This document shows positions 25,009 to 61,973 of a DNA stretch of 64,000 bases, one piece after another. This DNA is from Isoetes taiwanensis (lineage: Eukaryota; Streptophyta; Lycopodiopsida; Isoetales; Isoetaceae): assembly GCA_021234155.1 (NCBI GenBank), contig JAJEKV010000002.1, positions 43,327,203 to 43,391,202 on the forward strand. The letters are read 5' to 3'. The position numbers were made by a program, and so were the translations under genes. How positions within the stretch are numbered: position 1 is the first letter of the stretch; the number at the start of each line of letters is the position of its first letter. The notes beneath the pieces are model-generated. The model had not been told where the DNA came from. It was given only the letters and a program-made list of their open reading frames with translations, and ran no database searches.

Positions 25009-26649
25009 TCAAAGTCTGGTCATTCCCATTTCTTCAAGGCATTGAACAAACCTTTTTCTAGGAAGTGGTTTAGTGAACACATCTGCTGTCATCATGTGAG
25101 TCCCCAGATGCTTGATCACGATTTCTCCTTCTTCCACTTTTTCTCGAGTAAAATGAAATTGTACCTCAATGTGTTTGGCTTTCGTGAAGTTGCATGGATT
25201 CTTAGCCAAACTAACAGCAGCTCGGTTGTCATTCAGGATCAATGTTGCCCCCTTTTGAGCAATGCCCAGGTCTGATAAGAGTCTTCTAAGCCAAATGGCT
25301 TCTTTTGTGGCTGCACATATGGCCATATATTCTGCTTCACAGGTGCTAACTGCAGTTGATCTTTGTTTCCTGCTACTCTAGCTAATGACTCCCCCTTGCA
25401 GCCTAAAATAGAAGCCAGTTCTAGACTTGCGTGCAGTGGCATCCCCGTCATAGTCAGCATCAACCATACCTTCAAGAGTCATCTCCGCATGGCGTGTAGC
25501 TCTGTAAGTAATCCCCATACAAGATGTGGATTGCAAATAGCGCAAAATTCTCTTAACAACCTGCCAATGTGAGGGAGCTGAATTTTCCATGAATTGACTG
25601 ATGGTAATGACGCTTTCAGCTATATCTGGCCTTGTGCACACCATAAAGTGCATCAAAGAACCTACCACACTTCTGTAGGACACGCCAAACATGTATGGCT
25701 GGGTTTCTGCTCCTGGGGAAGTAGCAACAAGACACAAATTTGAAGAAACAGAGGGAGTGCTTACCTCTCGTGCGTGAGTCATGGTGCATTTCTGCAAAAG
25801 AGAGTCAATGGCCTTTGCTTGATGTATGGTAACAGTTTTGCGCATGGGATCATGGACCACCTGTATCCCAAGGAAATACTTGAGGGGACCCAAGTCTGTC
25901 ATGTGGAACCGTGCTGCCAGAGAGGCTTTAGTTTGGTTCATCAGCATCGAAGAGTTAGATGCTAGAATCAAGTCATCGACATAAAGGACGACATAGACGA
26001 CAGATGAACCGAGATGCTTTGTATACACATTCCAATCTGCATGGCTGCATGTGAATTCCTGACTGGTGAAGAATGCATGTATGGTCTTATACCAAAGGCG
26101 CGGGGATTGCTTCAAGCCATATATGGCTTTCTTAAGTTTGCAAACATGTGCTTCAGATCCAGGAGAAACATACCCTTCTGGTTGCTTTAAGTAAACCTCC
26201 TCATCTAGTTTGTCGTGCAGGAAAGCGGATTTAACATCCATCTGTTGAATATCTAGGTTCATGGCAGCTGCCAAGGCCAGTACAGCCCGGATAGAGGAGA
26301 GTCGGGCCACAGGAGCATACGTCTCTTGAAAATCAACGCCGGCCTTTTGGGAGCAACCCCGAGCAACTAACCGAGCCTTGTACTTTGAAATACAATTATG
26401 CTCATCATATTTAAGCTTGAAAATCCACTTACTAGAAATGGCTGTGCGCCCTGCTGGAAGTTGGCAGATCTCCCAAGTATTGTTCTCCAAGAGCGAGGCG
26501 TACTCTTCATCCATAGCCTTCTTCCAGAGGTGCTGTTGTGGACTGCGCATGGCTTGTTGAAAGCTGGCAGGTTCTGCAATGGAGGCACTGCTGTGCAGAG
26601 CAATGTAAGCAGACCCCTTTGGTCGTTTGCTTTGTAAGTACTCCATCAT
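25009..26649 (-). pseudogene. Copia-2 reverse transcriptase and RNase H
   Basis: The 423-codon frame (25378-26649) has all RT blocks: 'LWKKAMDEEYASL', 'SSKWIFKLKYDE', 'KARLVARGCSQKAGVDF', 'MDVKSAFLHDKLDEEVYL', 'LKKAIYGLKQSPRLWY' and the catalytic 'VLYVDDLILAS', followed by the RNase H start 'MVDADYDGDATARKS'. A frameshift near 25380 moves the rest to the 25009-25326 frame with 'EAIWLRRLLSDLG', 'NDNRAAVSLAKNP' and 'KHIEVQFHF'. Apart from this shift and the one near 26648, the enzyme looks intact. Confidence 0.9.
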
Positions 26650-28445
26650 CTTTGCAGTGGGCTTGATAGCCGTCTCAGATGTGGCACTTCCTGATTTTCT
26701 GCGCTACTGTCATCTTCACCAGACTCTGGTTCAGAGGGTATCTCAAATTCTTCACATGGCACATTGTCTTGACCTTGGTCTAGGTCTGATTCAGATTCAC
26801 TGGCAGTGTCCAGAGAATCACCGTCATCGGGCACAGATAACATTGGATCACCTGCGGGTGATTTCCCGTCTCGTTTTCCCAGGGTATAGTCTTCTTCATC
26901 AAAGATGACACTCCTGCGTGTTATAATTTTGCCTGTGGCTGGAACAAACAATCTATAACCCTTCATGGTTTCACTGTACCCGACAAACATACATGCAACA
27001 GCCTTGGGAGAGAATTTACCTGCACGTCTTTCAGCCTTTGACAAATGTGCATAGGCCTTGCAACCAAAGATCTTAAATCCTTCCACGTTTGGCCTTTGAC
27101 CCGTCCATGCTTCTTCTGGTACGCAACCATCCAGAGCCTTGGTTGGTACCCTATTTATGATATACACTGCTGTGTGAGCAGCTTCTGCCCAAAACCGAAA
27201 GTCTATGCCTTTTGATAGGATCAGCGCCCTTGCACACTCAAGAACAGTTCGGTTCTTACGCTCTACAACCCCGTTTTGTTGATGTTCATGTGCAATGGAG
27301 GTCTCATGCCTGATTCCACAATCTTGCAAATATTTTATGAACACGTTGCTAAGGAACTCACCCCCTTGGTCTGTTCGAATAGCTTTGACTTTCTGGCCTT
27401 TGAAGTTTTCAGCTGCATTCTTCCACTGTTTAAAGTACTCAAAAGCCTCTGATTTGTGTGCAAGGAAAAAGATCCAATTCTTTCTGGTACAATCGTCAAT
27501 TACCAACAAGAAGTATTTGGAACCTCCCAAAGAGGTTACTCTTGCTGCATCCCAAATATCCATGTGTGCCATATCTAGAGGTGATGTAGCACGTGTGCTC
27601 GGTTGCTTTTTATAAGCCTTTCTGCTCAGCTTCCCTAGGGCACATCCTTCACACAATCCCGTGGGCGACTTTAATTTGGGAAGTCCAAAAACATAGTTCT
27701 GCTCCCTCATTCTTTTCAGAAACTGAAAGTTGGCGTGTCCCAACCGCTCGTGCCAAACTTGATTTATATCGGTTGTAGTGGCACTTAGAGCAGTGCACTG
27801 CCCCCTGCACCAACTCAGTTTATACAATGCTCCCTCTCGTTCACCTTGTGCCACAATATTTTGATGACTGTCTTTGACAATGCACTTGCCATTTCCAAAA
27901 GTTGCAATCAGTCTGGCATCATCCAATTTGGAGACTGAAATGAGATTTGGCTCGAGATCAGGGACATACAAGGCCTGCTCCAATATTATTGTGCCTGTAG
28001 GTAACTTTAGGCTGACAGTACCCTCTCCAGAGATAGTAAGAAGCCCCTTTCCTATTTTCACCTTGCGATTCCCTGGAATGGACTCAAAGCTCTCAAACAG
28101 TTCTCGCTGGCCTGTCATGTGGTGACTGGCTCCTGAGTCAAGGTACCATATTCTGTGAGTGAGTTTTGCAACAAAACTTGTGGCAGAAACCTGTCTGTTA
28201 GTCCAGGGATCATCATCTATAAACATTTGATAGAAAATTGAAAGGAGCCTGTATATGAACTCAAGTATCTTACCAACCCATTTGAGAGACAGTCTGGAGG
28301 CCCTTCTATATTCCATTTGTGTTCCAAAGAAGGCTCTACTTACAGAAACCATTGAGTCACTGGAAGAACTATGTTCAGATTCACTTCTTTCCTTAGTTTT
28401 GGCTGCTTTGTGCCCCTGAGCATATGGAGCATCCTTTTTGTGCAA
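26646..28445 (-). pseudogene. Copia-2 protease and integrase (599-codon open frame)
   Basis: The protease signature 'WYLDSGASHHMTG' is at about residue 97. The pre-integrase HHCC region is 'VWHERLGHANFQFLKRM' to 'LCEGCALGKL'. The integrase core has 'HMDIWDAARV', 'FLLVIDDCTRK', 'RTDQGGEFLSN' and 'NGVVERKNRT' (D, D and E residues present). An acidic linker with 'ESESDLDQGQDN' ends the frame. A one-base shift at about 26648 separates it from the RT frame. Gag is absent, so the 'start' is only the first ATG left after truncation. Confidence 0.88.
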
Positions 28446-29440
28446 TTGTGTTTCTGTGATGACTATTTTGTAATCGAATTCATTAGCTTACATACGGCCA
28501 CGGCCCTTGCATTGGGGCGTGCTCGCTGATCTGTGAATGTTTGGTAGGGAAATAAAGTGTTCATGTCGACACCTTAGTTGGTATTCCTTTTTATGTGTTT
28601 CTTATTACATGGCGTATGGGAAGCGTCCTGCTATACGGGGGTGTGAGGTGTAAAATCCCTTGCCCTTGATTTGGCATATTCACACCTTTATGCTAGGATC
28701 CAATGGTCCTTAAAAAATATTAACACTTGAGCAAGGTCATGTGCTTATATGGCCTTTGGATTGATAGCATGGTTTTGTTATTATGTTTCTCATCAGCAGC
28801 TTCAGTGACGCAAAACATGATGGTTGGAGCACTAAAAACAAAAGCAAATGGGAGGCCCATTATCTTAATCCTTCAAAATCTTGCGATTGTGCATGACGAA
28901 AATTCATCCATTCGAGTATACATCATGGAGAACATAGTTGAACACACATAAAGTTTTCTTTTAAGGATGAGAACCCCATTAAACATAGTCACAAATGCAC
29001 ATGTTGCTATATGGTATAACAACATCTCCACGTCCAAATTAGATCATGAATGGATAACTAAACAGCAATTAGTATCTACACTAGAACCAACTAAGGTGGT
29101 GGTCCGCTTTCTTGTGCAATATTCTTCTCTACCTCCACACAACTCATGTGTTTAGGAAACTTCACTCTCAACGACCTCAACAAGCTGAAAGTGTAGAGAA
29201 TTTGTCTCTGAAAAGTAAGGAAGAGTCTCCATCTACTCTTCCACACATACTATCATATCCATCCTTTATCTATGAATAGCTAATTTCATCAAGGGAGATA
29301 ACACGCATTGTAGTATTTCTTTATCACCAATCCTTCAACGAGATAGAAGTTTGAAATATCTCTCTAAACACGTACCATATTTATTGAATGTCCAAACAAT
29401 AGATGTTCTAAAGTTTATTCTGCTCTCGCACACACAAGGT
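28446..29440. other. Spacer, no recognised gene
   Basis: Open frames at 28727-28951 and 28967-29155 (+) are short and match nothing I know. Confidence 0.45.
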
Positions 29441-31000
29441 AAGATGTACTCACATCATTTCTGAAATTATGAATCACCATGTTCACCCTCAACGATCTAT
29501 GCAAAATCTGCCATAACAATGTGCAAATATTTGGTGCAACAATTTTTCCAAGCCCATTTCCATATAGTGACCAATTCCTCTATATTCACATTAACATCCC
29601 ATTTCATCGACAAATGAAGAACTTCGTCTCGGGCAAGTAATTTGTAGCACATAGAGACAAACTGGCCTTCTGTAAGACATTGATCCACTGACCAAAACTC
29701 TCTCACGAGAGGATGTGCAAACCCTCTCTTATCATGTTCCTTCAATGAGAAGGAATCCCTTACACATGCTAAGGGACTAATCGTCCTGATTGGTACCAGC
29801 TTCCGACAAACTCGACATCGGCTTGCTTCAACCTCCTTTGTACACTTACATCTACACTATAAGGTTTAAGCATTCCATCTACATTCATAGAAGACCACTA
29901 CACGAGCATAAAGTCTAAACCATATACATCCTCTCTTAGATGAAAACGAAATTTAATCACAAACCATGCTTTACGTAATCCCTTCAAAAATGAAGATGCT
30001 CCACCATAAGGCTTTAGCTCATAAAATAAAACCCATGGTAATTCTGCTTTGATAGATGTCGTACTATTAGATACACATAAGAGTAATGATTGAGCAGGAA
30101 GTTTTAGAACCTGCCTTACAATGAAGGTCAATGTTTACCATTCCCAAGCCTCCATTCCAAATACAGTCTCTCACTTCTTCCCTGAGGGAGGAAGAGTCAT
30201 AAGCCATTAGTTACTTAGCTTGGGCTACAGCAATGACTCTACGAACATGTGAATAAATGCCTTGGAAAATGTGCAGCCTATATGATGCTCCCAAATTGAC
30301 CACAGTAACCAACCAGATCCGAGATGAAATGCTTTCCCTTTATATGGGGCCCATGCATCTGGGTAGGATGCTAGAAGAATAGATTGGCAATCCAGTGTAC
30401 TATTTAATTCTACTTAAAGCCAGGATCATGCTAGTTGGACTTTTGGACAAGAAAAGAGGCAATGCTCAAGTGTTTCAACATCTGAAAGGAAAAGTGGGCA
30501 TATATCAGAGTCGCGAGGATCATATTTATGCCACAAGGCCTTTACATACAAACACGTATGTAGGACTTGCACCCAAAGCACAAAAACTTTAGGATGGAGC
30601 AACTTATCCCAAAGCCAGTGCCATGTGCGAGCCCACATGGGTTCTGGGATCTGTAATTGCCATCCATTTGGCAATGGAAGGGAACATGGAGCTAATAGCT
30701 GATGGTATATAGAGCGGACAAAGTACTTGTCTTTATGAATATCCTCGTGATAATTCCATGGCACCCTTTCCGTGACACCGACTTCTACTATGAGAGGGAA
30801 GTTCTCTGCCACATCCCAATATGAGAGTAAGAGCCGGCCATGACAAAAGGCGGCCACCTTCATATCATGCTTCAATAGAGATATCTGCTAGGGCCCATTG
30901 TCTCTGCATAAGGGGATGAACAGATGTAGTGAGTGGAGGTGCTAAGGGGTCTGATGGCAATGGTAGCTGTTGCACTCAGAAGTGTGTACCTCAGTACAAC
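29440..31000 (-). mobile_element. Degenerate L1-type LINE ORF2, 3' half
   Basis: The frame at 30426-30875 (-) contains the zinc-binding reverse-transcriptase domain typical of plant LINEs: 'YFVRSIYHQLL', 'WARTWHWLWDKLLHPKVFVLW' and the C..C/H region 'SDICPLFLSDVETLEHCLFSCP'. Further left, 29497-29745 gives a similar 'WKWAWKNCCTKYLHIVM' block, perhaps a second overlapping copy. Many stops are present. Confidence 0.65.
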
Positions 31001-39289: not shown

Positions 39290-39690
39290 CATTTCTCGCG
39301 AAGTCGAGAAAGCCCTCGCCATCCTAACATTTCGCCGATTATCATCGGGGTTTTCGACTCGCGAAGTCGAAAGCCGTGGTAACACGTAAAATCAAAGGAT
39401 GCGGAGCTTTCATTCAGCGAAGTCGAGAAAAACCCTTAGCCAAGTAAAAGAAAATTAGACATTCAAGGGATTTTTCGGACTGAAGTCGAGAAAGCCCCGC
39501 CATCCTAACATTTGCCGACATATCATCGGGTTTCTCATTTCGCGAAGTCGAGAAAGCCAGGGTAACACAGAAAATCAAAGGATGCAGAGCTTTCTCGACT
39601 CGCGAGTCGAGAAAACCCAGAGAAGTAAAAGAAAATTAGACATTCATGGGACTTTCGACCAAGGAGTCGAGAAAACCCGGCTACTATTTA
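39290..39690. repeat. Two-copy 181-bp tandem repeat carrying the E1 palindrome
   Basis: The repeat word GCCATCCTAACATTT starts at 39318 and 39499. Each unit contains two palindrome copies, including the perfect one at 39591-39614 (TTTCTCGACTCG followed by its reverse complement). It lies between coding-like pieces, so probably in an intron. Confidence 0.7.
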
Positions 39691-39959
39691 ATTGCTTATT
39701 AGGGTGTTTGTAGATACTTTCATGCTCGACATTGGTACATTGTCCAATGCGCCCCTTTATCCCGACCGGATCATACACGCCTAGGCAAATTGGAAAGCAT
39801 TGGGTTGTCCTCGGCCCTAAAGGGAAACGTGGCTCCCCGGGATAAGTGGAAGACCTTTGAGAAACTATGCGCATATGTTCTCACTGAGGGACAGGAAGAT
39901 GACGAGGGAGAGGAAGAAGAGGAGAAGAAGAAGAGAACACCAAGGAAAGGCAGTGGAGT

Positions 39960-40223
39960 CTCTCGCACCAATATGACCTCATTCTTAATCGAGGCTGGTG
40001 GGAGAAATGGACTGACATATGGGCTCAATGGACAAGAGGCAAAGTCAAGGACAGCAATGGAGAATTTCCAAGCAGGCCGGACCCCAAGTTGTTTGACAAG
40101 CAGTTCATGAAGAGGATACAGGGCCTCACGGACAAAGAAACGCTTGACCTACAAGGCAAAATCTTGGAGGGAACAATCCTGCTAAGGAAGATCAGGCGTT
40201 CTAAAATGCAGGACGCAAAGGAT
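39960..40223 (+). pseudogene. E1 + strand gene, piece upstream of the E2 insertion
   Basis: One frame reads through 'SLSHQYDLILNRGWWEKWTD' and 'FDKQFMKRIQGLTDKETLDL' up to '..KMQDAKD' at the last base before E2. The upstream part (39720-39960) contains an acidic Glu-run and 'PRDKWKTFEKLCAYVL' in a neighbouring frame. It is not a family I know, but the Trp-rich, stop-free reading looks genuinely protein-coding. It continues in frame at 49439. Confidence 0.55.
40214..40223. repeat. E2 target-site duplication, left copy (CGCAAAGGAT)
   Basis: An identical ten-mer sits at 49429-49438. The bases on either side differ, so the duplication is exactly 10 bp, within the 8-11 bp range typical of Mutator-like elements. 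Confidence 0.88.
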
Positions 40224-40283
40224 GGGGAATTTTTCTTGGAGGGTTTTTTCTTGACTGGTTAAGAGGGTTTTTTTTATTTCTAG
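40224..40283 (+). repeat. E2 left terminal inverted repeat (imperfect)
   Basis: It begins GGGGAATTTTTCTTGGAGGG. It aligns to the reverse complement of 49370-49428 with roughly 70% identity by eye and one or two gaps. Confidence 0.75.
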
Positions 40284-40571
40284 TAGACGAAATTGTGAAT
40301 TTTTTGGTGGCATTAACATGTAAATAGGATCTTTGGTGCCTAGGATTAGAACTTGAATTGGACAGTTGATTTAAATGGAGAATAACTTGGCACACATTTA
40401 TTTAATAAAGTAATTGAAAGAAAACATAGAAAACGAACATGTTTCAAAGGATTGATCGCAGGACATCATCTGTAACTACAGGTTGGATGATGTCAATAGT
40501 CAATCTTGGATCTTGGTTTAATAGCCTTGCAAAGACATACATTATATGCTTGCATGGAGTATATTGCTTCT

Positions 40572-43500
40572 TCATTGTTCTAGCTCGAAATCGACGGTGC
40601 ATGTTGGATATTTGCAAATGCTTACCTTGTAAGTTTCGTTTGGCCTTCTAATACAATACTCAACATGTAAGTGAGGTATGATGACTCTCGTTGAAAGCAG
40701 TTCACATTCCAAATGTAGAGCTTGTTCAAGTCTGATTTCTGCATCCTTCCCCAATTTTGTCCTTCTATTCATGCGTTTTCCAAACCGCTCCATAACTGTC
40801 ATGGGCTTACTTGTCATGGGCTCACTAGAAGCTGTAGCATTGCATGAATTGATCCCTCTAATAGAGAAACTTCCTCTCTCCAATATTCCCAACTCTTGGC
40901 TGTTTAGATTGACCCCAGTACATACTGGCCAATCAACAGGTCTAACTGGCACATGTACTATATTGGTAGAGGGATACCATGTGTGTTGCATATGATCAGG
41001 GCAGAACCAAAATTTTTGTACGACCTCCCTTCCATTTGCTTTCCTTACCCCTGTAAAACATGGTGCTGCAGTGGATTTGGTTATAATCTTATTGATATAG
41101 GAATTACATTTCCTACCATTCGGCCCCAATCTTCCCTGGCACTTCACTCTACTACCTGGCTCAGTTCTTCTTATTGCCCACTCTTCGTCAGCCACATCAA
41201 ACTCATGAACAACATATACTGCTTCATCAAATACTATGTTACGCCTTCGTGATGCATCCATTCTAACTCTAGCTTGCGTATGAGCTCGCTTATCTGGACG
41301 ATGACTTCCTGATCCCATGTCTCTGTTGTACTCAGAACTGTCTCTAGTTCGCTTAAGAACTGTTTGGTTGTTTCCTCCGGAACCTGGATCTATGGGGCGG
41401 ATTCCGGTATGCAACACAGCTGAATTGACTGCATTAACACAAACTGAAGGACTTACATTGCTAGTAGCGGGAGTACCTAATCTTCGAATCAATGTAGCCA
41501 ATCCAGGACCCGTGCCAACAAAGTTATGTTCTCTATGTGCTTTACACTTTGCACTTTGTAATACAGCTTCTGTCAGATCATGTAGACAAGCGTCATACAA
41601 GCTTATCTTATTGACGTAACCTCTTGATGCTAACCAGCTGGCATGTCTAGATTCAGATAAATTTGTGTTTGGTATCTGAGCTGCTGCAACTAGATCAACA
41701 CCATCATGCATGAAATTACCCCATCTACTAGCTCTTTGGTGCCACCATGCAAGCCAAGATCCCAATGCTGGTAAATCTCGTGGATTAGCTTTTCCTGGCC
41801 ACCAAGAAATAATATTTTGATATGCCACTTCAGCTTCTTCCACAGAAGCTGCTGATCTCCATGCCCTGCATAAAGTTAAATGTTCTTGCCTATGCTCATG
41901 AATAATGAGTTTATTTGTATGTCTCTGTAGACACTGCTCCCAATGAAATTTACAACCACGTTCTCTTCCTTCCATTGGTTGTCCATCATTGAATACCAGA
42001 CGAATGGCATTCCAATTAGCTTGAGCTTCGTCAGCCATAAATCCTCTAAATTGGGCCGGCTTAAAGCTCTTCAACATCATTACATTATTAAGCTTCTTCC
42101 AGAACTTTGCTTGCGAGGCAGTATCTTCAGTTTTCATCTCACAAGTTGCTATTGTCAATAGACAACGCATACTGAAAATTATAGAGAAAAGAAGTAAATA
42201 TGTGTCATTAAAATGAATAAAATAGAAGTCCAATGAGTACCTAGGGTCATAAACATGACAAGCCAAAGTTGTCCATCCAGGGATACGTTTAACATGATCA
42301 AAATGAACCCAAGAATTTTCTAAGTCACCTCCAGGGCGCATTCTGTTAACAAGCTCCACTCCAGATCCAGGACCAGTTGTGGACATTTTGAATATATAAC
42401 ATCGACCAGTATGTTCATTGTGAAGTTGGTAGGGAAACTTGGATCCATGAAAGAATTGATATCTGCAGTACTGCTTCAGGTAAAGAATCTTCCCAATCTC
42501 ATCTTTTTGTGTGGTGCGACACTCCAATGTCTTATTTATCCATTGACGTATCCTTTAGAACCAAGAAAATTGTCAAAAGACAAAAGAGATATATATTAAT
42601 AGCAATATCTACATTAAGAAAAGTACCTTCGCTTATTGCAAAGGGGCTCCAATTGTCTCAGCAACCCGTCAATTTTATCTCGGTCCCACATGTGAATGTC
42701 AGAAGCTTCCTCTGTTGATATCAAACTATTGATTGTTATTTCCATGGCAATCTCTTTCTCTATTTCTTTTGGCCCTTTCCTAGCAACAGATCCACTGGAC
42801 TTGGATTGAACCATTTGCTGCATTTGCACTAGTTCTTCACGACTTGGTAGTGATCTAGCTGGGTGTTCATGCCTGCCAATATGAATGGCCAATCTAGTGT
42901 ACCTGAAATTGTCAGGCAATACGTAATAGATTATACATTGGCATAGCTCGATGCATGAAGGTTGTTCATCACAATATTCACAAGCCAAAACACCTGCATC
43001 CTTAGACAATGGACCAATAATAGGTTGCCTTTTCAGAGTTCCCTTCCATTGAACATCATTTGCAAAACCTCTAGAAGAAAATAATCACAAGTAGGATTCA
43101 TGCATCTTATGTGCCCACAACATTTGGAATACTTAACCACGCCATCAAATGCTTGACTTGTTTTCTCTGGCTTGCTCCAGATGTATGGATCAACTTTGCG
43201 TTCCATTCCAGACATGGACTTGAGTACATCAGGAGGCAACTCAAATACTATAGTATCATTATACTGAGATGGTAAATATTCCACTCCTTGTGCTATCTCT
43301 GTCTTGGATGTGATTTTTTTCAACTTACTAGTTCCAACGCTCCACAGAATTGACTCAAAAGTTGATAAAGGTTTCTTGGACACATCTCGATTAGGACTTT
43401 CAATCAATATTGGGGCATCAGGAGTGCCGATACAGATGGGTGCGCCTTCTACAGAAATAAAGTGACCATTTACTGCAAAAGCTCTATAGACAACTTCACC

Positions 43501-43816
43501 TCTGTCATTGGTAATCTCCGGGAGTCGTAAGGTTGGTAATCTCCGGGAGTCGTAAGGATCTACCTTCTCGACCATTAGAAGATTGAATTACACATAGCCC
43601 CGCTGCTTTAAATTGGAAACTATCACAAAGCCATTTTCTACTCATACAACATTCTCCATTTTCAAAAGTAGCAAAGATTCTCAAACGCTTTCCTGGTGAA
43701 GTGATGATAACATCAGTTTTGGTGAAGGCCAGAATATCGCATTCGCCTAGATCCATGTCAAAGATGAATAAAAACTTGAATCTAACGAGCCGGTTTAAAA
43801 AGATGAAACACAACAT
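40572..43816 (-). pseudogene. E2 MULE-type transposase with N-terminal zinc fingers
   Basis: Exons read right to left. The first (about 43816-43070) holds 'GECDILAFTKTDVIITSPGK' and ends in a zinc-finger start 'CGHIRCMNPTCDYF'. Next (43010-42620) come 'CEYCDEQPSCIELCQCIIYY' and 'IHIGRHEHP'. The catalytic exons are 42527-42241 and 42171-40626, with a clear GT-AG intron between. The core reads 'HVYDP', 'TIATCEMKTED', 'FMADEAQANWNAI', 'GCKFHWEQCLQRHTNKL' (a C/H motif after the second Asp, as in MULE transposases) and 'NLSESRHASWL' (candidate Glu). It would cut and paste the element in the nucleus. A 25-bp tandem duplication at 43508-43557 and a one-base loss near 43080 destroy the frame. Confidence 0.72.
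43508..43557. repeat. 25-bp tandem duplication that shifts the E2 transposase frame
   Basis: Positions 43508-43532 and 43533-43557 are identical. With one copy the protein reads straight from '..NGREGRSLRLPEITN' into 'DRGEVVYRAF'. With two copies the phase is lost, because 25 is not a multiple of three. Confidence 0.9.
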
Positions 43817-44309
43817 GCTTGAACGTTCTTAACAAAATTTTGTCATAAATGCATAACGTTGTAGTTATGAGTGCTTGCCATAATCATAAAACCAAACATT
43901 ATGAATGCCAATAGAACACTATCTATATCATAATCATAAAACGTTAGCATTAATTGTCATAAAACGTTAGTGGGGGTGCAAATGTGGGGCAAAATATTAA
44001 AACGTTAGCATTAACGTCATAAAACGTTAGTGGGGGAATGTGGGGTATTGGCAAATGTGGGGCAACCCGTTAGAATTTTTTGAGGCAAAAATTTGAGGCA
44101 ACCCGTTAGAACGCAAAAATTCCTAAAGCATGTCTATTGCCCGCAAGCATTCCTAAAGGCAAACATTCTTAAAATAAAAAGACAACTTTGCTAAGACATG
44201 ATATTTTTAAAAGTATATTGATCATCAAAAGTAACGAAAGAAAAAAAAAGAAGCAAGAAACGAAAGAACTTTTTCTTATGCGACGGCGCGTTTAGTGACT
44301 CTGCCAGAT

Positions 44310-45125
44310 GCTGCTCCAAATCGAACTCGCACGCCAGATCACCCAGCGGTAGCCAGTCCTCCACTAAATTTGTAAGTATTTGTTATGTTGCCTTCTCTTT
44401 CACCATTTTTCGCAGATCATTTCGCGGATCATTTTTTGATTTTTCGCGATCTCCTCGGATAGAACTCCTGCAAATCACCCCAGGCGGCGCCGTCCTACCC
44501 AAAATCTGTGAGTATTTTGTAAGTTGTCTTCTCTTTCACCCTTTTTTTTCCCAGATCATTTAACTGTACTCGAACTCCTCCAGATCTTTTCGATGTCTTG
44601 GAACTCCGAAAATCAACCCAGCGGCCCTCCCAAAAAATGTTAGTATTTTGTAAGTTGCCTTCTCTTTCACCGTTTTTTTTTTTTTTTCATTTTGATATCT
44701 TTTCTTAGATCATTTAAGCGTACTCGAACTCCTCGGATCTTTTTAAGCTCTCTTGGAACTCTTGCAAATCACCCCAGGCGGCGCCGTCCTCCCCAAAATT
44801 TGTAAGTATTATGTAAGTTGCCTTCTGTTTCACATTTTTTTTTCATTTTCATTATCTTTTTGCGAGCATTTAAGCGTACTCGAACTTCTCGGATAAAGTC
44901 GCTCTATTGGAACTCCTGCAAATCACCGTAGGCGGCGCCGTCCTCCCTAAAATTTGTAAGTATTTTGGAAGTTGCATTACGTTTTTGAGAGCATTTAAGC
45001 TGTACTCGAACTTCTCGGATAAATTTTGTTTGCTTGAACTTCAGAAATCACCCCAGTAGCCGTCCTCCCCAAAATTTGTAAGTATTTTGTAAGATGCCTT
45101 CTGTTTCACAGTTTTTTTTCATTTA
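44310..45125. repeat. Six-copy imperfect tandem repeat between the two E2 genes
   Basis: The recurring core is 'CAAATCACCCCAGGCGGC.GTCC' followed by 'AAAATTTGTAAGTATTTTGT' and 'AAGTTGCCTTCT'. The GTAAGT-like part occurs at about 44371, 44507, 44641, 44800, 44956 and 45078, a spacing of 122-159 bases. It lies in the divergent promoter/leader region. Each unit brings a consensus-like splice donor. Confidence 0.8.
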
Positions 45126-45540
45126 CATTATCTTTTTGCAAGAGAATGAACGTGTGTCCACTTTGAAAAATAAGATTGTGGACCTAAGCCCTTTGCTCTG
45201 TGAACCTAAGCCCATTCATTTTTGAGCATTAGCATTTCATTTTATTTGAGTGGCATTGTATTTTATCCTTCAGGCTTTGTTTGTTATGTCCGATTTGGGT
45301 CTGTTCCTTGTGTCAGATTTGATTCTTTATGCGGTTATCCTCCCCATTCTTTACACATACATTCCAATCCCACATCCTTGTGCGTGCAACATAGCCATTT
45401 GCATCTTCTAATAATCTACACCTGTCCTATTTTCCTATCAGTTGTTGCGTGAAGCTAAAGTAGTTCTCTTTCATTCTGCAGATGTAAAAGTTGAAGGTCA
45501 GATGTAAAATTTGAAGGTTTTGCAAGATAGTGAGGTTGTT

Positions 45541-48500
45541 AATGGTTCAAACTAGAGGCAGGAATCTAGATTTTCAGCCTATCGTTTGGAGTCCCCTAAA
45601 AGCGGAATAGAGGAAAAGCAAATAAAATTATGTCTAATATTCTTGGCGGTCGGGACCATGAAACAATAGAAGAAGAGGATGAGGATAAAAATGAGGAAAT
45701 GGAAAATGAAGACGATTGATGGAATTGATGCATCAGGAAGCGGATGTGCAACAATGTCATAAGCTTGAAGATCAATTTCAAAACCCGAAGGTGCCCGCAT
45801 GCAGAAAGAAACAACATAAAATCAAGACAACATGAAGCAAAACCAGCCACATATGAAAGTTTGGAGGATGATATTAATGAAGATTTTGATGCAACCTTCA
45901 CGATGGAAATGATTTCTGAGACCCTTGATCAACTCAGGTTAACAAGACCTACACCACCACCATTGATCCCTCCGTAGAATTCTTAGAAATGAGGCAGTGA
46001 GAACAGTGACTAGTTCTACTCAACAGATGCGAGAAGTATTTCGATCTGATGGTTATATTCAAGAAAAAGGCTCCTTCATTTTATCAATGCAAACTTTGAG
46101 GAAAGATGATGTTTGGCTTGATGACACCATAAAGGCAAACTGGGATCCCATCTGGAGACAAATAATTGAAGAGTTCGAATTAGAAGTTGCAAATTGAGGA
46201 GGATTGGAAAGATTTGAGTGGTCGCATGTTCTTATCTTTGGGATGGGAATCATCGTCATTGTGGCATGGATGGAGGAGATTGCATCCAATTACACATTCA
46301 ATAGGTCGAGACATATTCGAGTATTGGCATCATTTGTGGTTGTCGATCGTGATACAAGAAGGTCCATTGATATCATCATTGAATCGCATTAATGAGTATG
46401 TATTGCCTTCTTGCATATATAATCACTTAATTTATGTATGTAATCAACGATGTTGATTTAAACTTATGTAATGTATTCTGAGGTTGAATGAGGTTGGAGT
46501 TGTCAAAAATACTCTAAAAGATACTTTGTATAGTGTATACAAAGTGGCAACATCTAATCCTGAAAAGTACACAAGTAGATTAGAACCTTCATATCTGAAA
46601 TCATTGAAGCTAAAGGATTCTAGTGGCATTCTTTGGTGACCAATGGTATCCATTACCAAGACTTGCTTACTGCAAAATATTGTTTCAGGTAATTATTTTT
46701 AAATTTTGTTATGGTAATGTATAAGATGTATTGATTAGTTGTTTATTGCATTGGTCTATAGCGTGCCATTGATAGAGATATAGAGCAAGAAATCAAGAAG
46801 ATTGGACAATCGATGATCTTTGAGACAATGAGATCAAATGCCAAAAGGAAGGTCCATGAAAAGTGGATAGCAAAAATGGGGAAGTATCTTGGAATTGTGA
46901 ATCCATCTTTAGGAAGTAGTTGGTTGCATGCTGTGACTCGTCTTGACTTGGAAACTAAAAGCATGAACATTACAGTAGAAAAGTTGATTGAAATGGTTAA
47001 AGCTAAGGTCCCAAATCACGTTAGGGACAAATGGATTCATTGGATGTCTTCTGGTGTTGCAATTATAAGTACTTATGGCATTCCAACTAATGATAAAGAT
47101 TTTAGAGATTGGGTAAAAAAGAAAGTGTGGTTGGAGCATTTACTATCCCGTGCAAAGGAAATTTTTCTAAGAACATCAGAGGACTTCAACATTGTTATTG
47201 AAATCCATAGAGGCGATGACCTAGAGAGTTGGTTTCGTCAATTCAAATTGGAAAACAGAAAAATGATGTTCAAGAACTATGAGAAGGAGATGATACTTGG
47301 TTCTACAATGCATGATGCATTTGAAATTGAAAAGTCTGCTACAAGGGTTTGCCACAGGTACATCCTATTTTTCTTTATCAAGTTTACTTGTTTACGTTTG
47401 ACACTAACTTCTTTGTCTTACACGAGATATTATAAGTATCTCGTGAAGCAAAATCTTTTGCATCAAATTCCTATCCGGATCAAAGTATGGTGCAAAAAAA
47501 GGCGAGCATGGCATGTATTCAGAGAAGGGCAATATGGATCGACCGGGAGGCATGGCGATTATGAGGAAATCCATTGTCCTTGGTGGTTGGATTTTCCAAT
47601 CAATAGTTATCCAAAGAGGAGAAGGATGAATGGCATAAACATCAAAAGGCGTTATGAAAGCAAGTGATCCTATCCCTTCCGTCACAAAGGTTAGATGTAC
47701 ATGGTACTAAAAGCGATGAAAAGAAAAGGAAGAAAGTAAAGCACAAAGATGTTGATGTATCGATGAGGAAACTATAGAGGTTGGGTGTGGAGCATCCATG
47801 TCCACAACCTTTTGAAATTATGTGCAATGTTGCTATTGAAATTCATTGTGCTGATGTTTGTCACATATCGGAAGATTTAAATCGTAAGATAGAAAGCAAA
47901 TCTTTCAAAGAATTAAGGGGAGTTTGCCGGGTCACACGCATAAAGCCATTGGCGAGGTACATGCATTTGGAAAAGAAAGGGATTGGGGATTTGACGTACT
48001 TCTAATGGATTTTTCCGACTAATGACTTCCTTTTCTTTGGTATTTGTCGGAGATACCGATTGGAACAAATGTCCACAAACATTGATTGAGGCGGCCTTTG
48101 CTCTAGGTAACTTATGTTTGGATGATGGTGTTTGGATAGTAGCTATTTGTTCTTGAAGCAATGCAAACAAGTCCAAAGGGCTGGAAAATTGAGGAACATA
48201 GAAATTATGAGGACTTACACCCTCGTATCTGATAAACCTTTTGGGTTCAAGATAGATAAGCTTGGCACTTTCGCTCAACTTTCTTTGCAGGTTTATGTTA
48301 TGGGCAGAATTGGCACAACACCGCGCATTCAAGGATCAGCAAGTAAGTTCTTCTTGATTATTTTCTTGCTTATATAGATGTCACATTTTGTTTAAGGATG
48401 TCTCTTTCTTTTGTTTAAGGATGTCTATTTCTGTTTATAAAAGTTAGATGTGTTTTGCATTGCCTCATTTCTTCTCTTGTTTCCTAGGTACAGATTATGC

Positions 48501-49087
48501 AAAATCTATCATTCATCATCATCATTTGCAAGCCACCAAATCTTTGGCAAGCCCAGAAAGACAATGCCTTTGAAAAAAAATCTATTCAGTTCATGGAGTA
48601 TTTGTTAGAAATGCTTTGCCCAGAAGGTGGTGTAGTCCTAGATTTATTTGCAGGAACAGGCTCAATGTTAATGGCTTGTGCTATTCGTGGATGTCATTGT
48701 TTTTCATTTGTGGTGATCCTGTTTTTATGTGATCTTGTGAAAGCTAAGTGCATATCAAAATTTATGAAGCCAAATGCATTGATTTGGAGAACAAGAATGA
48801 GAAGTATGATTCGAGTCCGAAGATGAGCGATGTTGTAGGACAAGATGTTGAGGAGCTGGGAGGAATAGTAAACTCTCACTCTTTCAAGAAATATTGTATG
48901 CATTTATAGCTCCATGCAAGTAGTTGTCAAATAGTTCTTAATATTGCTACATGTTTGCAGTGCATTACCAGACTATGCTGAGAAGATTGCTATGGAGCAA
49001 GCATCACAACCTTCACCTATTATAGTCGTTTCGAAGAGAAAGAAATGCTTATTTGTGGACGATGAATCTAGTGAAAGTTTGAGGTAG
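45541..49087 (+). pseudogene. E2 cargo gene: ParB-like segment plus N4/N6 DNA-methyltransferase-like domain
   Basis: Coding pieces follow in order. The first starts at the ATG at 45541 and carries an acidic N-terminus. Next is 45980-46390 with 'TLRKDDVWLDDTIKANWDPI' and, in an adjacent frame, 'DGNHRH' (about 46250) then 'VAWMEEIASNYTFN', resembling the DGNHR core of ParB/sulfiredoxin-fold domains. A long helical part follows (46765-47357, exon end CAG|GTACAT), then a basic region (47430-47670). A catalytic-like segment 'FVGDTDWNKCPQTLIEA' and 'DDGVWIVAIC' (48035-48155) precedes 'KPPNLWQAQKDN' and 'VVLDLFAGTGSMLMACA' (48530-48685), the SAM-binding motif. Catalytic region before SAM motif is the order of beta/gamma-class amino-methyltransferases. 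The usual DPPY is not seen. The C-terminus (48960-49087) has 'SKRKKCLFVDDESSESLR'. Frameshifts are visible. Confidence 0.62.
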
Positions 49088-49369
49088 ACATAGCAAATTG
49101 CTATCGAACTTGTGTCCTTCTATAGTCAGACATTTAGTTCGTTCACTTGTGGTACCTACAAAAACTATGGCTGCTATTGTTTGACATTTTCCGGCTTAAC
49201 TATGCTTTTGCATTTTTTATTAGTTTCTACAAACTACCTTTTCATAATATTTTGGATACTTGATTGAAGCAAAGGGAATGGTTTATGTATTATAAGATTG
49301 TATAATTAAATCAAAGTTAGGTACTAAGAAATACCATAGGAAGATACACGCCAAGGATTAAGCTGAAGT

Positions 49370-49428
49370 AGACAACATAGAAAAACCCTCTAAACCATCC
49401 CTAAAAAAACCCTCCAAAAATTTGCACT
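49370..49428 (-). repeat. E2 right terminal inverted repeat (imperfect)
   Basis: The reverse complement begins AGTGCAAATTTTTGGAGGG and parallels the left end. It is followed directly by the second CGCAAAGGAT copy (49429-49438). Confidence 0.75.
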
Positions 49429-49438
49429 CGCAAAGGAT

Positions 49439-50237
49439 TATGCCACAGTCCTAAAGCGACAGCGTGCGTTAGAAGAAGGCATCACGGAGTTCTGCAACGT
49501 TGCATCTAATGAATACCATGATTTTGATTATTACAAGGAAAAGGCTGCCCTTGATGAGGAAGACATGAAGGAATTGAACCGTCTATGTCAACCCTACATC
49601 AACACCAAGTCAAGCGTAGCACGTCAAAACCCTTCCTTTCCCCGAGCGTGCTATGGCACCACGAAAAAGGAAGCTTGGATTAAGGGTGGTCCCATTTAAA
49701 GGCGTGCACGATAGCTCCCCCCATTTCGGGTTACTTTGGGACACAAGGGATTTGGTGGTGCAGGCCTTTGGACCCGTGGCACTATTTGCCATCAATATGA
49801 TCGAAGACCCCACCCTTTTTATGACAAAGCCGACATAGGCGATTGGTACAAGGCGTGTTCTGGACATGACCGACTGGATACTTTCGGTTTCCTTGTCTTT
49901 TGCATGCTTAGGGCAATCAAACAGCCGCATTGTCTCCCAATAGGCGGTGATATTAACTTCACCAACAAGATCATGCACTCCATATACGAACTTGATCATG
50001 AGTGCAGACTTGGCTTGCCGAAGGCATCAAGCTTTGCCAACATAGTTTTGGTTTTGATTTCAAGATCGGCGGTCGACCTGGATAAGTGGTGGTCTAGCGA
50101 GCATCATTATCTCGACAAGTTCATGATCTCTCAAGAGCAGATGGAACCCTGGAAGGGGGGCAGGTTTATGGAGGATGTTCCATCGATGGACAAGGTCAGC
50201 AAAGATGGTGCGACCGGTCCTATACATAGAATTCCTA
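49439..50237 (+). pseudogene. E1 + strand gene, piece between E2 and E3
   Basis: In frame with the piece ending at 40223 it reads 'YATVLKRQRALEEGITEFC', then 'EYHDFDYYKEKAALDEEDMK', until a stop at 49698. A shifted frame (49736-50237) continues with 'GDWYKACSGHDRLDTFGFLV', 'GGDINFTNKIMHSIYELDHE' and 'KWWSSEHHYLDKFMISQEQM'. Long stop-free reading with balanced composition argues for a real former exon. No family recognised. It is cut at 50237 by E3 and continues at 52570. Confidence 0.55.
50232..50237. repeat. E3 target-site duplication, left copy (TTCCTA)
   Basis: TTCCTA recurs at 52564-52569. Because neighbouring bases also agree, a 4-bp TCCT duplication with a one-base-longer inverted repeat at each end is equally possible. 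Both give the same empty site. Confidence 0.8.
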
Positions 50238-50851
50238 ACAAAGTTTAAAATGAAACGCACTTATTTGCTGCAAACGCACTTCAAAAGGAATCTTTGAAAG
50301 ATTCCCTAAAATTCCCTTAAAAAATGCCCTTTTCTTGGTATATTTGTGACAAGTGTGACAATTTGAATATTTTAGGCACCATTTTTGGATGGGAATTTGA
50401 ACTCAGCTTCCATTCAAAATTGTTTGGTACCATTTTTTGGCCCCCTAGTTTGGTTTGAGAAATAGTAATATTTTTAAGGACAAAACAAAATAGACATTGA
50501 AAAAAAAAACAAAGAAGCTAAAGAGTGCCCAAAAACGTATTTAGTTCAAAGTTTATAAATTCACTACAAAATTATGAACAAAATTGCAAAAAATGCAACA
50601 CATTTTGATATTGCCTCAATGAAGCAAATATTGTCACCTTAAAGTATGCCTCACACGCGAGGTGAAGTCGAAGATGCTTGCGCTTTGCTTTATACACTTG
50701 CTCTTATTTGCTCCTCCCAACTTGCTATAGACTTCAGATATCTGCTTGATGGCGGCATTATGTATCAATCCGGACTTTTTAAACTTTGTAATTTATTTGT
50801 TCTCTGTAGTCTTTAGTTTCTTCCAAATAAATTTCAAGATGGTATAAATTT

Positions 50852-53890: not shown

Positions 53891-53965
53891 ACGCTTTCGG
53901 ATAGTCAAATTGTGTGAATATTGTAATCGAACGTGAACACATGTATTGACCATTTTGTAATGAAT

Positions 53966-54290
53966 ATACTTGTATATTGAGTTTTCGATGCCTTTCTCGA
54001 CTCACGAGTCGAGAAAGGCATGCTTGTCGTGTTGATGAAACCATTTGTATGTTTGATTGTGTGACTGGATGCAGCCACAATCTATTATGATAATGCTTGT
54101 ACATTGGGTTTCCTGGGCCTTTCTCGACTCGCGAGTCGAGAAAGGCATGCTGGTTGTCTCGTTGACAAAAGCATTTGTATGCTTCCGTGTGTGATTGGAT
54201 GCAACCATATTCTAATGAGAATGGTTGTACTTTGACTTTTATGGGCCTTTCTCGGCTCATGAAGTCGAGAAAGACACTACTTCCCACGCC
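53966..54290. repeat. Three tandem units of about 127 bp with the E1 palindrome
   Basis: The palindromes are at 53993-54016, 54120-54143 (perfect) and 54248-54272, each flanked by 'GGCCTTTCTCG' / 'GAGAAAGGCATGCT'-like sequence and 'CATTTGTATG', 'TGGATGCA.CCA'. They lie just after the phosphatase domain, in 3' UTR or intron position. Confidence 0.8.
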
Positions 54291-59400: not shown

Positions 59401-60600
59401 GCCAAAGTAGCTTGAGTTCCTCTATGCTCGGAGTATGGAGGTTCATGACATTCTTGTACCACTTTCTGTATTCTGTATTCTGCCAAAGAATCTCTATCAT
59501 CCTTTTGTATCTGTGCATACAGAGCAGCAAAAGAGGGGTCGTTCGCATATTCCCCTTTCATTGGTTCCAAGTCAACAATTTCTGCTATGGATATGGCTTG
59601 AATATTTACTCGGCTTAGTGCATCAGCAACCTGATTCTCCTTCCCCAGTTTATACTCAAGCTGTAACCTTTCAAAATCCTTTATTGAGTCAATGAGCTTT
59701 AACTGTCGCGCATTGATAATATCCTGTGTTCGTATATGTTTCAAACTCTGCTGATCAAAACGGGCAACAAACTTTGACCCTATAAGATAATGTCTCCATT
59801 TCTTTAGTGCATGAACCAAGCAATCAATTCCTTTTCATAAGTGTGATACTTTTGCTCCAATGATTTGAGCATGCGACCAACATAAGCTAATGGATGCCCG
59901 TCTTGCATAAGTACTTCACCAATAGCATTTCCACTAGCGTCAGAACATATGGTAAAAGGCTTGTTCCAATCAGGCAGTATTAATACTGGTTCAGTTGCCA
60001 TTTTCTCTTTCAGAATTTGAAAAGCTTCATCGGCTTTCACATTCCAAACAAAGGGTATGTCCTTCTTTAAAAACCTGCTAAGAGGAAGAGTTACTTTTGT
60101 AAAATCGTTGACAAATCTTCAATAGTAACTGCATAACCGTAAAGAACGTAAATCCTTGAGGTTTTCAGGTTGAGGCCAATCAATAATAACCCTAATCTTT
60201 TCAGGATCCATCCTTATGCCCTATTTGGATACAATATGACCCAAATATCCAACTTCTTGCATAAAGAATCTACTCTTGGACTCATTAACAAACAACTTGT
60301 TCTGCCTGAGAAGATCAAAGTACTGCTGAAGATGTTGTTTGTGCTCCTCAATAGTTGTACTATATATAAGGATATCGTCAAAGAATACTACAACACTTTT
60401 CCCCAATACTGGTGCTAAAACTCTTCCCATGAGATGACAAAATGTTGCCGACGCATCGGTCAGTCCAAAAGGCATTACACGAAACTCATAATGACTAAAA
60501 GTTGTTCTGAACGCTGTCTTACCAATGTCCTCATTCTTTATTCGAATCCGATGATATCCTGATTTTAAGTCTATCTTGCTAAAGATGCAAGCACCTCATA
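59370..60600 (-). pseudogene. Gypsy reverse transcriptase (C-terminal part) and RNase H
   Basis: The RT box 'VVVFFDDILIYS' is at about 60370-60390, with 'MPFGLTDASATFCHLMGRVL' before it and 'GYLGHIVS' after. RNase H shows 'FTICSDASGNAIG' (60.0-59.94 kb) and 'KYHTYEKELIA'; the frame continues as 59370-59819 with 'KENQVADALSR'. A gap with shifts lies at 60050-60220. Confidence 0.83.
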
Positions 60601-61848
60601 GCTCATCAAATAAATCGTCAGCTCTGGTACTGGAAACTTATCCTTAATGGTCAGCTTGTTGAGGGCTCGATAGTCTACACACATTCTATATCCCTTGTCT
60701 TTCTTTTTTATTAGAATGACTGGTGCACCAAAAGGTGAACAGCTCGGGCATATTAACTGATGGTCTAACATCTCGGGCGTATTAACTGACGGCATTTCAA
60801 GCCCCAGTTTTTCAAAATGGCTAACTCGGTAAGGTGCCCTATTTGGAGGTTTTGCATTTTCTTGCAAGTGTATCGCATGATCTTTTGGGCGATGAGGAGG
60901 TAGATCTAAAGTTTCCTCATCTTTGAAAAGATCATCAAATTGCCTGAGACAGCTATACAATTCAAGAGGCACCTGTGGTTGTGGATCCGAGTTCCTCGAG
61001 TAAATGAAATACGACTCTGCTTCACTTTGTATTAACTTCTTAGCTTCCGAATATGTCAATGAGGGTTCAACCTGAGATGCAAAATCTGAGTGCAGTTTAA
61101 AAGGTTGACGTTCAATAGTAATTAGGTCATCAAATTGTTCTCGCCATCCAATTCCTAATATCACATCCATAGATCCTAAATGAGTTAGAATCAAAACTTT
61201 TTCTTCCGAGTACTGCTCTATTTGGATAGGAGCTATCATATATTTATCGCACTGATTCTTGGGCCCCTTCAAACCTTGCACAACTATGATTTTAGTTTGT
61301 AAATCACAAATAGGTAATCCTAGTTTGTACACCAAGTCCTGCGAAATAAAATCATGTGTTGCTCCATCGTCAAGTAAAGCAGTCACTTCATGACCTTTTA
61401 CTGAACCTTTTATTTTAAACAGCCATGTTTCTGGAGATCCTGTATCTACTCCAGACAAATTCTTTAGGTATGGTATTTGCAGTCTCCATTTTTCTTGTTC
61501 AATAGCCGCGGGCTTTCCTTTACTCCTTTCTTCCCCTTCCCTAGACGTTTCTGGTCTGTCCTCCACATGATGAGATTGAGCAATGGGTCGTTCTTTAGGT
61601 ACGGGCCCTTTGAAATGTACTTTCTTCAGGTTCTTATCCGCTGAAGCCGAATTCTTTGGACAGTTAGATTGATAATGCGGTCCTCCATAAATATAACATC
61701 CAGTCTTTGGCCCTTTATTCTGCTTTTGCTTGGCCTTCTGTCCATTATTTGAGCGCTTTCCGTTTCTTCCATTAAACCTTGACGTACGCTCATCGCGCCC
61801 TCTTTTATTTTTCTTATCCTTCCTATTTTCATATTTTTCACACTTCAA
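60571..61848 (-). pseudogene. Gypsy zinc knuckle, protease and N-terminal reverse transcriptase
   Basis: A 425-codon open frame. The zinc knuckle reads [13 protein letters not shown], with Tyr where the second Cys should be. The protease active site is '[13 protein letters not shown]', with Asp in the usual Ser/Thr position. The RT starts '[21 protein letters not shown]'. The length is close to that expected, but the altered zinc and protease residues suggest decay. Confidence 0.85.
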
Positions 61849-61973
61849 TCTTTTCTGTTCCCGAGAAGGTGCTCCTTCCCAAATAACTAGTTTGCGGGCC
61901 TTGGGATTTAATTTTCATTCTGAGGCTCATGCTTTCTGAATTGCATCTTTCATATTGATTGATTCAATAAGAT

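Follow-up and report, generated by a model that had tools for sequence, protein, structure and literature searches.

The locus lies within a plant-type genome, in a stretch of DNA of 64 kb that was analysed as a whole (the window), and consists of a single mobile unit of 9,205 bp, E2. The element carries two genes that start divergently from a common noncoding centre, a transposase gene on one strand and a decayed second gene with a methyltransferase-like end on the other (Table 1).

Table 1. Features of E2 and its insertion site, in window positions (TSD, target site duplication; TIR, terminal inverted repeat).
Feature	Position	Strand	Description
Left TSD	40214..40223		10 bp, CGCAAAGGAT, identical to 49429-49438
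Mobile element E2	40224..49428		Delimited by TSD, TIR and a 193-aa frame that is open across the empty site
Left TIR	40224..40272	+	40 aligned nt (40233-40272), 83% complementary to 49381-49420
MULE-type transposase gene	40480..43756	-	Six pieces, two intron-size gaps (74 and 81 nt), three frame changes; relative P0001
Exact tandem duplication, 25 bp	43508..43557		Tandem Repeats Finder, 2.0 copies, 100% match; within the transposase gene at a frame change
Four clustered AAACGTTAG words	43939..44030		Noncoding centre; no others in the window on either strand
Six diverged tandem copies	44318..45146		123-158 bp as cut here; between the two divergent genes
Decayed second gene	46012..48709	+	Recognisable coding pieces: DGNHR segment, middle with no known domain, methyltransferase end
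DGNHR segment	46242..46256	+	ParB/Srx-like signature from motif search; upstream of DLFAGTGS on the same strand
Longest open piece of second gene	46762..47358	+	199 aa, inside ORF 46762-47667; no known domain
ORF with N6_N4_Mtase motif-I region	48488..48826	+	DLFAGTGS; PF01555
Right TIR	49381..49428	-	Pairs via 49381-49420
Right TSD	49429..49438		10 bp, second copy of CGCAAAGGAT

The boundaries first proposed for E2 proved to be exact. The TSD is perfect, and at its spacing of 9,215 there is one identical 10-mer pair among 54,700 positions. Target duplications of Mutator-like (MULE) elements measure 8-11 bp, and classical Mu TIRs are longer than the 40 nt aligned in E2. The TIR alignment begins 9 nt inside the ends, the outermost 9 nt giving no gap-free alignment, and its local score of 45 was equalled by one of 19,874 random 60-nt pairs drawn from the window. 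The TIR core, GAGGGTTTTTT/GGAGGGTTTT, has five overlapping matches on both strands of the 64 kb, falling at three sites, all of them at the two ends of E2. When E2 and one TSD copy were removed in silico, the flanks joined as one open frame of 193 aa, indicating that the insertion had hit an open frame; the next ORF after this target frame (49715-50248) has no Pfam match. The duplication, the related inverted repeats and the single transposon that the first-pass annotation had described are therefore all confirmed. An assembly artefact, or a juxtaposition of two unrelated halves, was considered and rejected, since the TSD and the restored target frame speak against it. The window also holds Copia-type and retroviral-type protease ORFs; together with the intron-size gaps, these led us to reject bacterial contamination.

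A protein search with the E2 transposase returned, among 6,109 candidates, one relative, P0001, a protein of 1,058 aa that covers 98% of the query at 32% identity (E 5e-157); when the two were aligned separately, identity was 35%. In the alignment of these two sequences, D436, D502, C528-x-x-H531 (CSFH 528-531) and E627 (P0001 numbering) are invariant, the blocks around them are strongly conserved, and a set of N-terminal Cys and His residues is conserved as well. MULE transposases are marked by a D-D-CxxH-E order and by a SWIM finger at the terminus, and on this pattern we take D436, D502, CSFH 528-531 and E627 to be the catalytic residues. P0001 carries the C-terminal SWIM finger (PF04434, E 6.8e-5). 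In E2 the first Cys and the C-x-H are kept across a frame change and the second Cys of the CxC is lost, and E2's own transposase pieces gave no SWIM match in the Pfam search. The Pfam MULE and transposase_mut profiles match neither the pieces of E2 nor P0001, which points to a divergent branch that these models may not cover. A structure model of P0001 with E2's pieces (four sequences) was too poor, with a mean pLDDT of 35; its strands at 432-468, around D436, resemble the opening part of an RNase H fold and carry no weight at this pLDDT. Taken together, the D-D-CxxH-E order, the SWIM finger and the 10-bp duplication underlie the assignment of E2 as Mutator-like, and, judged by motif and homology, we accept the minus-strand gene as that of a divergent MULE transposase. 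The MULE-type transposase claimed earlier thus holds through the homology to P0001, the SWIM finger of P0001 and the D...D-CxxH...E residues, without a Pfam MULE match.

The second gene sits within the ends of E2, no second strong inverted-repeat pair surrounds it, and it has in common with the transposase gene the noncoding centre that holds the six tandem copies and the four AAACGTTAG words. A scan of 39500-50200 gave 23 inverted-repeat pairs, of which the outer TIR is the only strong one, the other 22 measuring 18-27 nt at 75-89%. Its confinement to one continuous half of E2 would fit a nested insertion, in which the gene arrived with a different mobile element that had inserted into E2. 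We regard this as quite improbable, because no internal strong inverted-repeat pair marks a later nested insert, although an element with short TIRs or none would escape such a scan. The second gene would belong to E2 and would have moved jointly with it over many transpositions.

The coding pieces of the second gene were picked by eye and then mapped to the DNA, and further exons are likely on either side of the recognisable part. The longest open piece yielded an uninformative structure model (mean pLDDT 36). It is the downstream end that identifies the gene: translated from the window DNA alone, the ORF with DLFAGTGS matches the PF01555 (N6_N4_Mtase) profile with E 1e-6 and 29.3 bits (curated cut-off 26.7), over 47 residues at profile positions 157-203 of 221, with the SAM motif I (D-x-F-x-G-[ST]-G) present. 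This bears out the divergent gene with an N4/N6 methyltransferase SAM motif that the first-pass annotation had noticed. Three profiles of phage DNA methyltransferases (phrog_498, phrog_3008 and phrog_67) match the read-through of the second gene with E 7e-9 to 6e-8, and two methyltransferases of the PDB match a shorter piece of it with E 7.5e-4 and 9.6e-4; in both comparisons one guessed residue lies at the match edge and strengthens the match a little. In a tblastn search of the methyltransferase ORF against phages, which gave 728 records, the best E value among the best 10 of the 728 was 5e-3, nine of these ten being annotated as methylases or methyltransferases and one as hypothetical; these matches are consistent with the domain, with no close source among the matches listed. 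The catalytic motif IV, [DNS]PP[YFW], does not occur in any of the six frames of E2, so it has been lost or is unrecognisable. Since this copy is decayed, its second gene cannot be classified as a working enzyme, which passes no judgement on intact relatives.

Upstream on the same strand, the DGNHR segment is present, as the first-pass annotation had noted for the second gene. Neither DGNHR nor the pattern DxFxG[ST]G[ST] was found in 300 order-1 Markov sequences of E2's length or in the other 54,775 bases of the window, and a looser ParB-like pattern appeared in one of the 300 random sequences. Three frame changes within about 46195-46264 interrupt the DGNHR region, and this broken region matched no ParB profile or fold in Pfam, PHROGs or the PDB. 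From the motif and its place, an N-terminal ParB/Srx-like segment is plausible, so that motif and position make the ParB-like part of the earlier claim plausible, with no profile match behind it. Among the Pfam models that had been named for checking, N6_N4_Mtase matched, whereas those for MULE and ParB did not. The shortness of the PF01555 match, and the position of DGNHR between two frame changes with no ParB match, could also be read as a chance likeness, the second gene then being an ordinary MULE accessory gene of another kind. We consider this highly improbable, given that the PF01555 score obtained from window DNA alone exceeds the curated cut-off, that three phage methyltransferase profiles reach E < 1e-7 on the same stretch as the two PDB methyltransferases, and that both motifs are absent from the random sequences.

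E2 is known from one broken copy. A tblastn search with both read-throughs revealed no further copy in the window; of its 22 rows, 12 lay outside the element, with a best E of 1.5. The read-through of the second gene, compared with 5.8 billion proteins, produced 5,412 candidates and none at E up to 10, in a word-based search that misses distant relatives; a second query, rearranged to centre on DGNHR and DLFAGTGS and run against the same 5.8 billion proteins in the same word-based manner, produced seven candidates and no relative. Scans of viral contigs gave no relative of P0001 or of the second gene and, for the transposase pair, 14 pattern matches and no relative; among prokaryote genomes, scanning for the second gene gave ten pattern matches and no relative.

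With the pieces as chosen, the second gene contains eight frame changes that have no intron-size gap, against three in the transposase gene, one of these at the exact 25-bp duplication. It also has five intron-size gaps, three of which pass a crude GT..AG test. Neither protein is made whole by this copy as it stands, and, the methyltransferase gene being broken in eight places, the copy cannot now mark its DNA. The larger number of frame changes in the second gene is what would be expected of a passenger on which selection is weak, and this heavier decay favours what we see as the main rival, namely a Pack-MULE-like capture in which a methyltransferase gene of the host, or one acquired horizontally, was taken up once, with no role in transposition. 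The intron-size gaps and the lack of any other known E2 copy point in the same direction. Seed-free plants have N4-cytosine methylation enzymes of their own. In addition, N4-cytosine methylation has been reported in Marchantia sperm (reference 72 of PMC8885841), which also favours capture. On the other hand, the pieces extend over a large part of a gene, the divergent intergenic region is common to the second gene and the transposase gene, and the two-gene layout is like that of a published algal transposon (PMC12477816). On balance we judge a capture somewhat unlikely.

In our view, E2 is best explained, with a probability of roughly two in three, as an inactive Mutator-like transposon of autonomous type, whose second gene would be an N4/N6 DNA methyltransferase accessory gene, probably with a ParB/Srx-like N-terminus, devoted to self-directed marking or anti-silencing. 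Reading the second gene as an accessory module rests on the order of DGNHR and then DLFAGTGS on one strand, on a two-gene layout similar to that of Sola1-1_Ec32 (PMC12477816), and on the matches to PF01555 and the phage methyltransferase profiles, fusions of ParB and PF01555 being known (PMC12704722). Against this explanation weigh the single copy, the lack of a relative of the second gene, of a ParB profile match, of motif IV and of a Pfam MULE match, and the more advanced decay of the second gene. The layout of E2 points to a second protein that worked on the element's behalf. In such a scheme, the DDE transposase would bind the inverted repeats and move the element, leaving the 10-bp duplication, and the intact second protein would bind E2's own DNA, for which the central tandem repeats would offer a natural docking place, by analogy with the targets of VANC. 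It would then methylate the promoter region or the ends of E2, and this methylation might keep the promoter open or help the action of the transposase. Docking on the repeats is proposed because the diverged central copies resemble the regions targeted by VANC (PMC10398659).

A more specific version appears unlikely to us as it stands: that a branch of plant MULEs uses a phage-like ParB-N4/N6-methyltransferase to clamp the central repeats and write a mark other than 5mC, leading to active chromatin or to recognition by the transposase. Such a protein would be the writer counterpart of VANC, acquired separately by MULEs, by Sola1 and by other algal transposons. If other copies of E2 agree with the accessory-module reading, the ParB-methyltransferase module would have passed between transposon superfamilies that are not related to each other, with plant Mutator-like elements among its carriers. 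Such a spread would hint that self-marking of DNA is selected for, and would open an entry route for writers of N4-methylcytosine or N6-methyladenine into plant genomes.

VANDAL elements are themselves Mutator-like. They encode VANC proteins that lift silencing at the elements' own tandem repeats, which diverge rapidly (PMC10398659), so that in Arabidopsis, as proposed for E2, a protein of the element acts on the epigenetic state of its noncoding tandem repeats; VANC induces the loss of silent marks, with no methyltransferase mentioned in the accessible text of these sources, whereas E2 carries a methyltransferase-like gene (PMC10398659, PMC5735166). DNA methyltransferases are likewise encoded by other eukaryotic transposable elements, the retrotransposons of Symbiodinium and charophytes, for some of which de novo activity was shown, but these DNMT enzymes are C5-cytosine methyltransferases of host origin, and their carriers are retrotransposons (PMC5890265). 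Fusions of a ParB fold with PF01555, the domain pair proposed for E2, occur more often in phages than they do in bacteria, and the phage genes come without a transposase; that survey of ParB folds, which includes eukaryotes, contains no word beginning with 'transpos' or 'plant', a point against the reading of E2 preferred here (PMC12704722). A bacterial ParB-methylase with nicking activity has also been described (PMC5512222). The first-pass remark that no described plant Mutator-like element with such a gene was known agrees with the literature matches listed, a set outside which most subscription papers fall: none of those matches shows a ParB-methyltransferase gene in a MULE or in any plant element, and algal transposons do have the module. 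As reported in the accessible portions of PMC12477816, transposons of green and red algae carry ParB-methyltransferase-like proteins (Iyer 2011; Petroll 2025, as cited there), accessory proteins similar to that of E2. What we see in E2 is thus most likely a known accessory module of algal transposons that has a MULE of a plant-type genome as its new carrier, represented by one broken copy. Its closest counterpart in layout is Sola1-1_Ec32, a Sola1-family DNA transposon of the brown alga Ectocarpus, which combines ParB-like and N4-cytosine/N6-adenine methyltransferase domains in one protein and, like E2, encodes its second protein and its transposase on opposite strands; Sola1-1_Ec32 is a 21.5-kb Sola1 element of a brown alga, whereas E2 is a 9.2-kb MULE of a plant-type genome, with a broken gene and a putative ParB segment (PMC12477816).

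Joining the sequences that flank E2, the Mutator-like element, without one copy of its target duplication (39903-40223 joined to 49439-49699) restores a 193-aa open frame, which is the target into which E2 inserted. The ORF that comes next after this frame (49715-50248) had no match in Pfam.

Between the divergent transposase and methyltransferase-like genes of E2 lies a noncoding stretch of tandem copies (see table), several of which contain the core GGCGGCGCCG, and in which the donor-like word GTAAGT recurs. These copies could serve as docking sites for a protein or as first exons used alternatively.

Repeats within E2 and retroelement ORFs elsewhere in the window
Feature	Positions	Strand	Content
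Copia-type retrotransposon ORFs	25378-28487	minus	reverse transcriptase (RVT_2), integrase
Six diverged tandem copies	44318-45146		between the two divergent genes of E2
ORF	60571-61914	minus	retroviral-type aspartic protease

At 53951-54165, an 88-nt sequence occurs twice in direct orientation, and both copies enclose an inverted repeat (GCCTTTCTCGACTC and GAGTCGAGAAAGGC) with arms 2 bases apart.

Among the retroelement sequences, the aspartic protease ORF probably belongs to a Gypsy element, a label that we infer. A zf-RVT zinc finger was also matched on the minus strand at 30426-30887 (E 1.7e-5, slightly under the curated cut-off), a domain typical of plant LINE-type elements.
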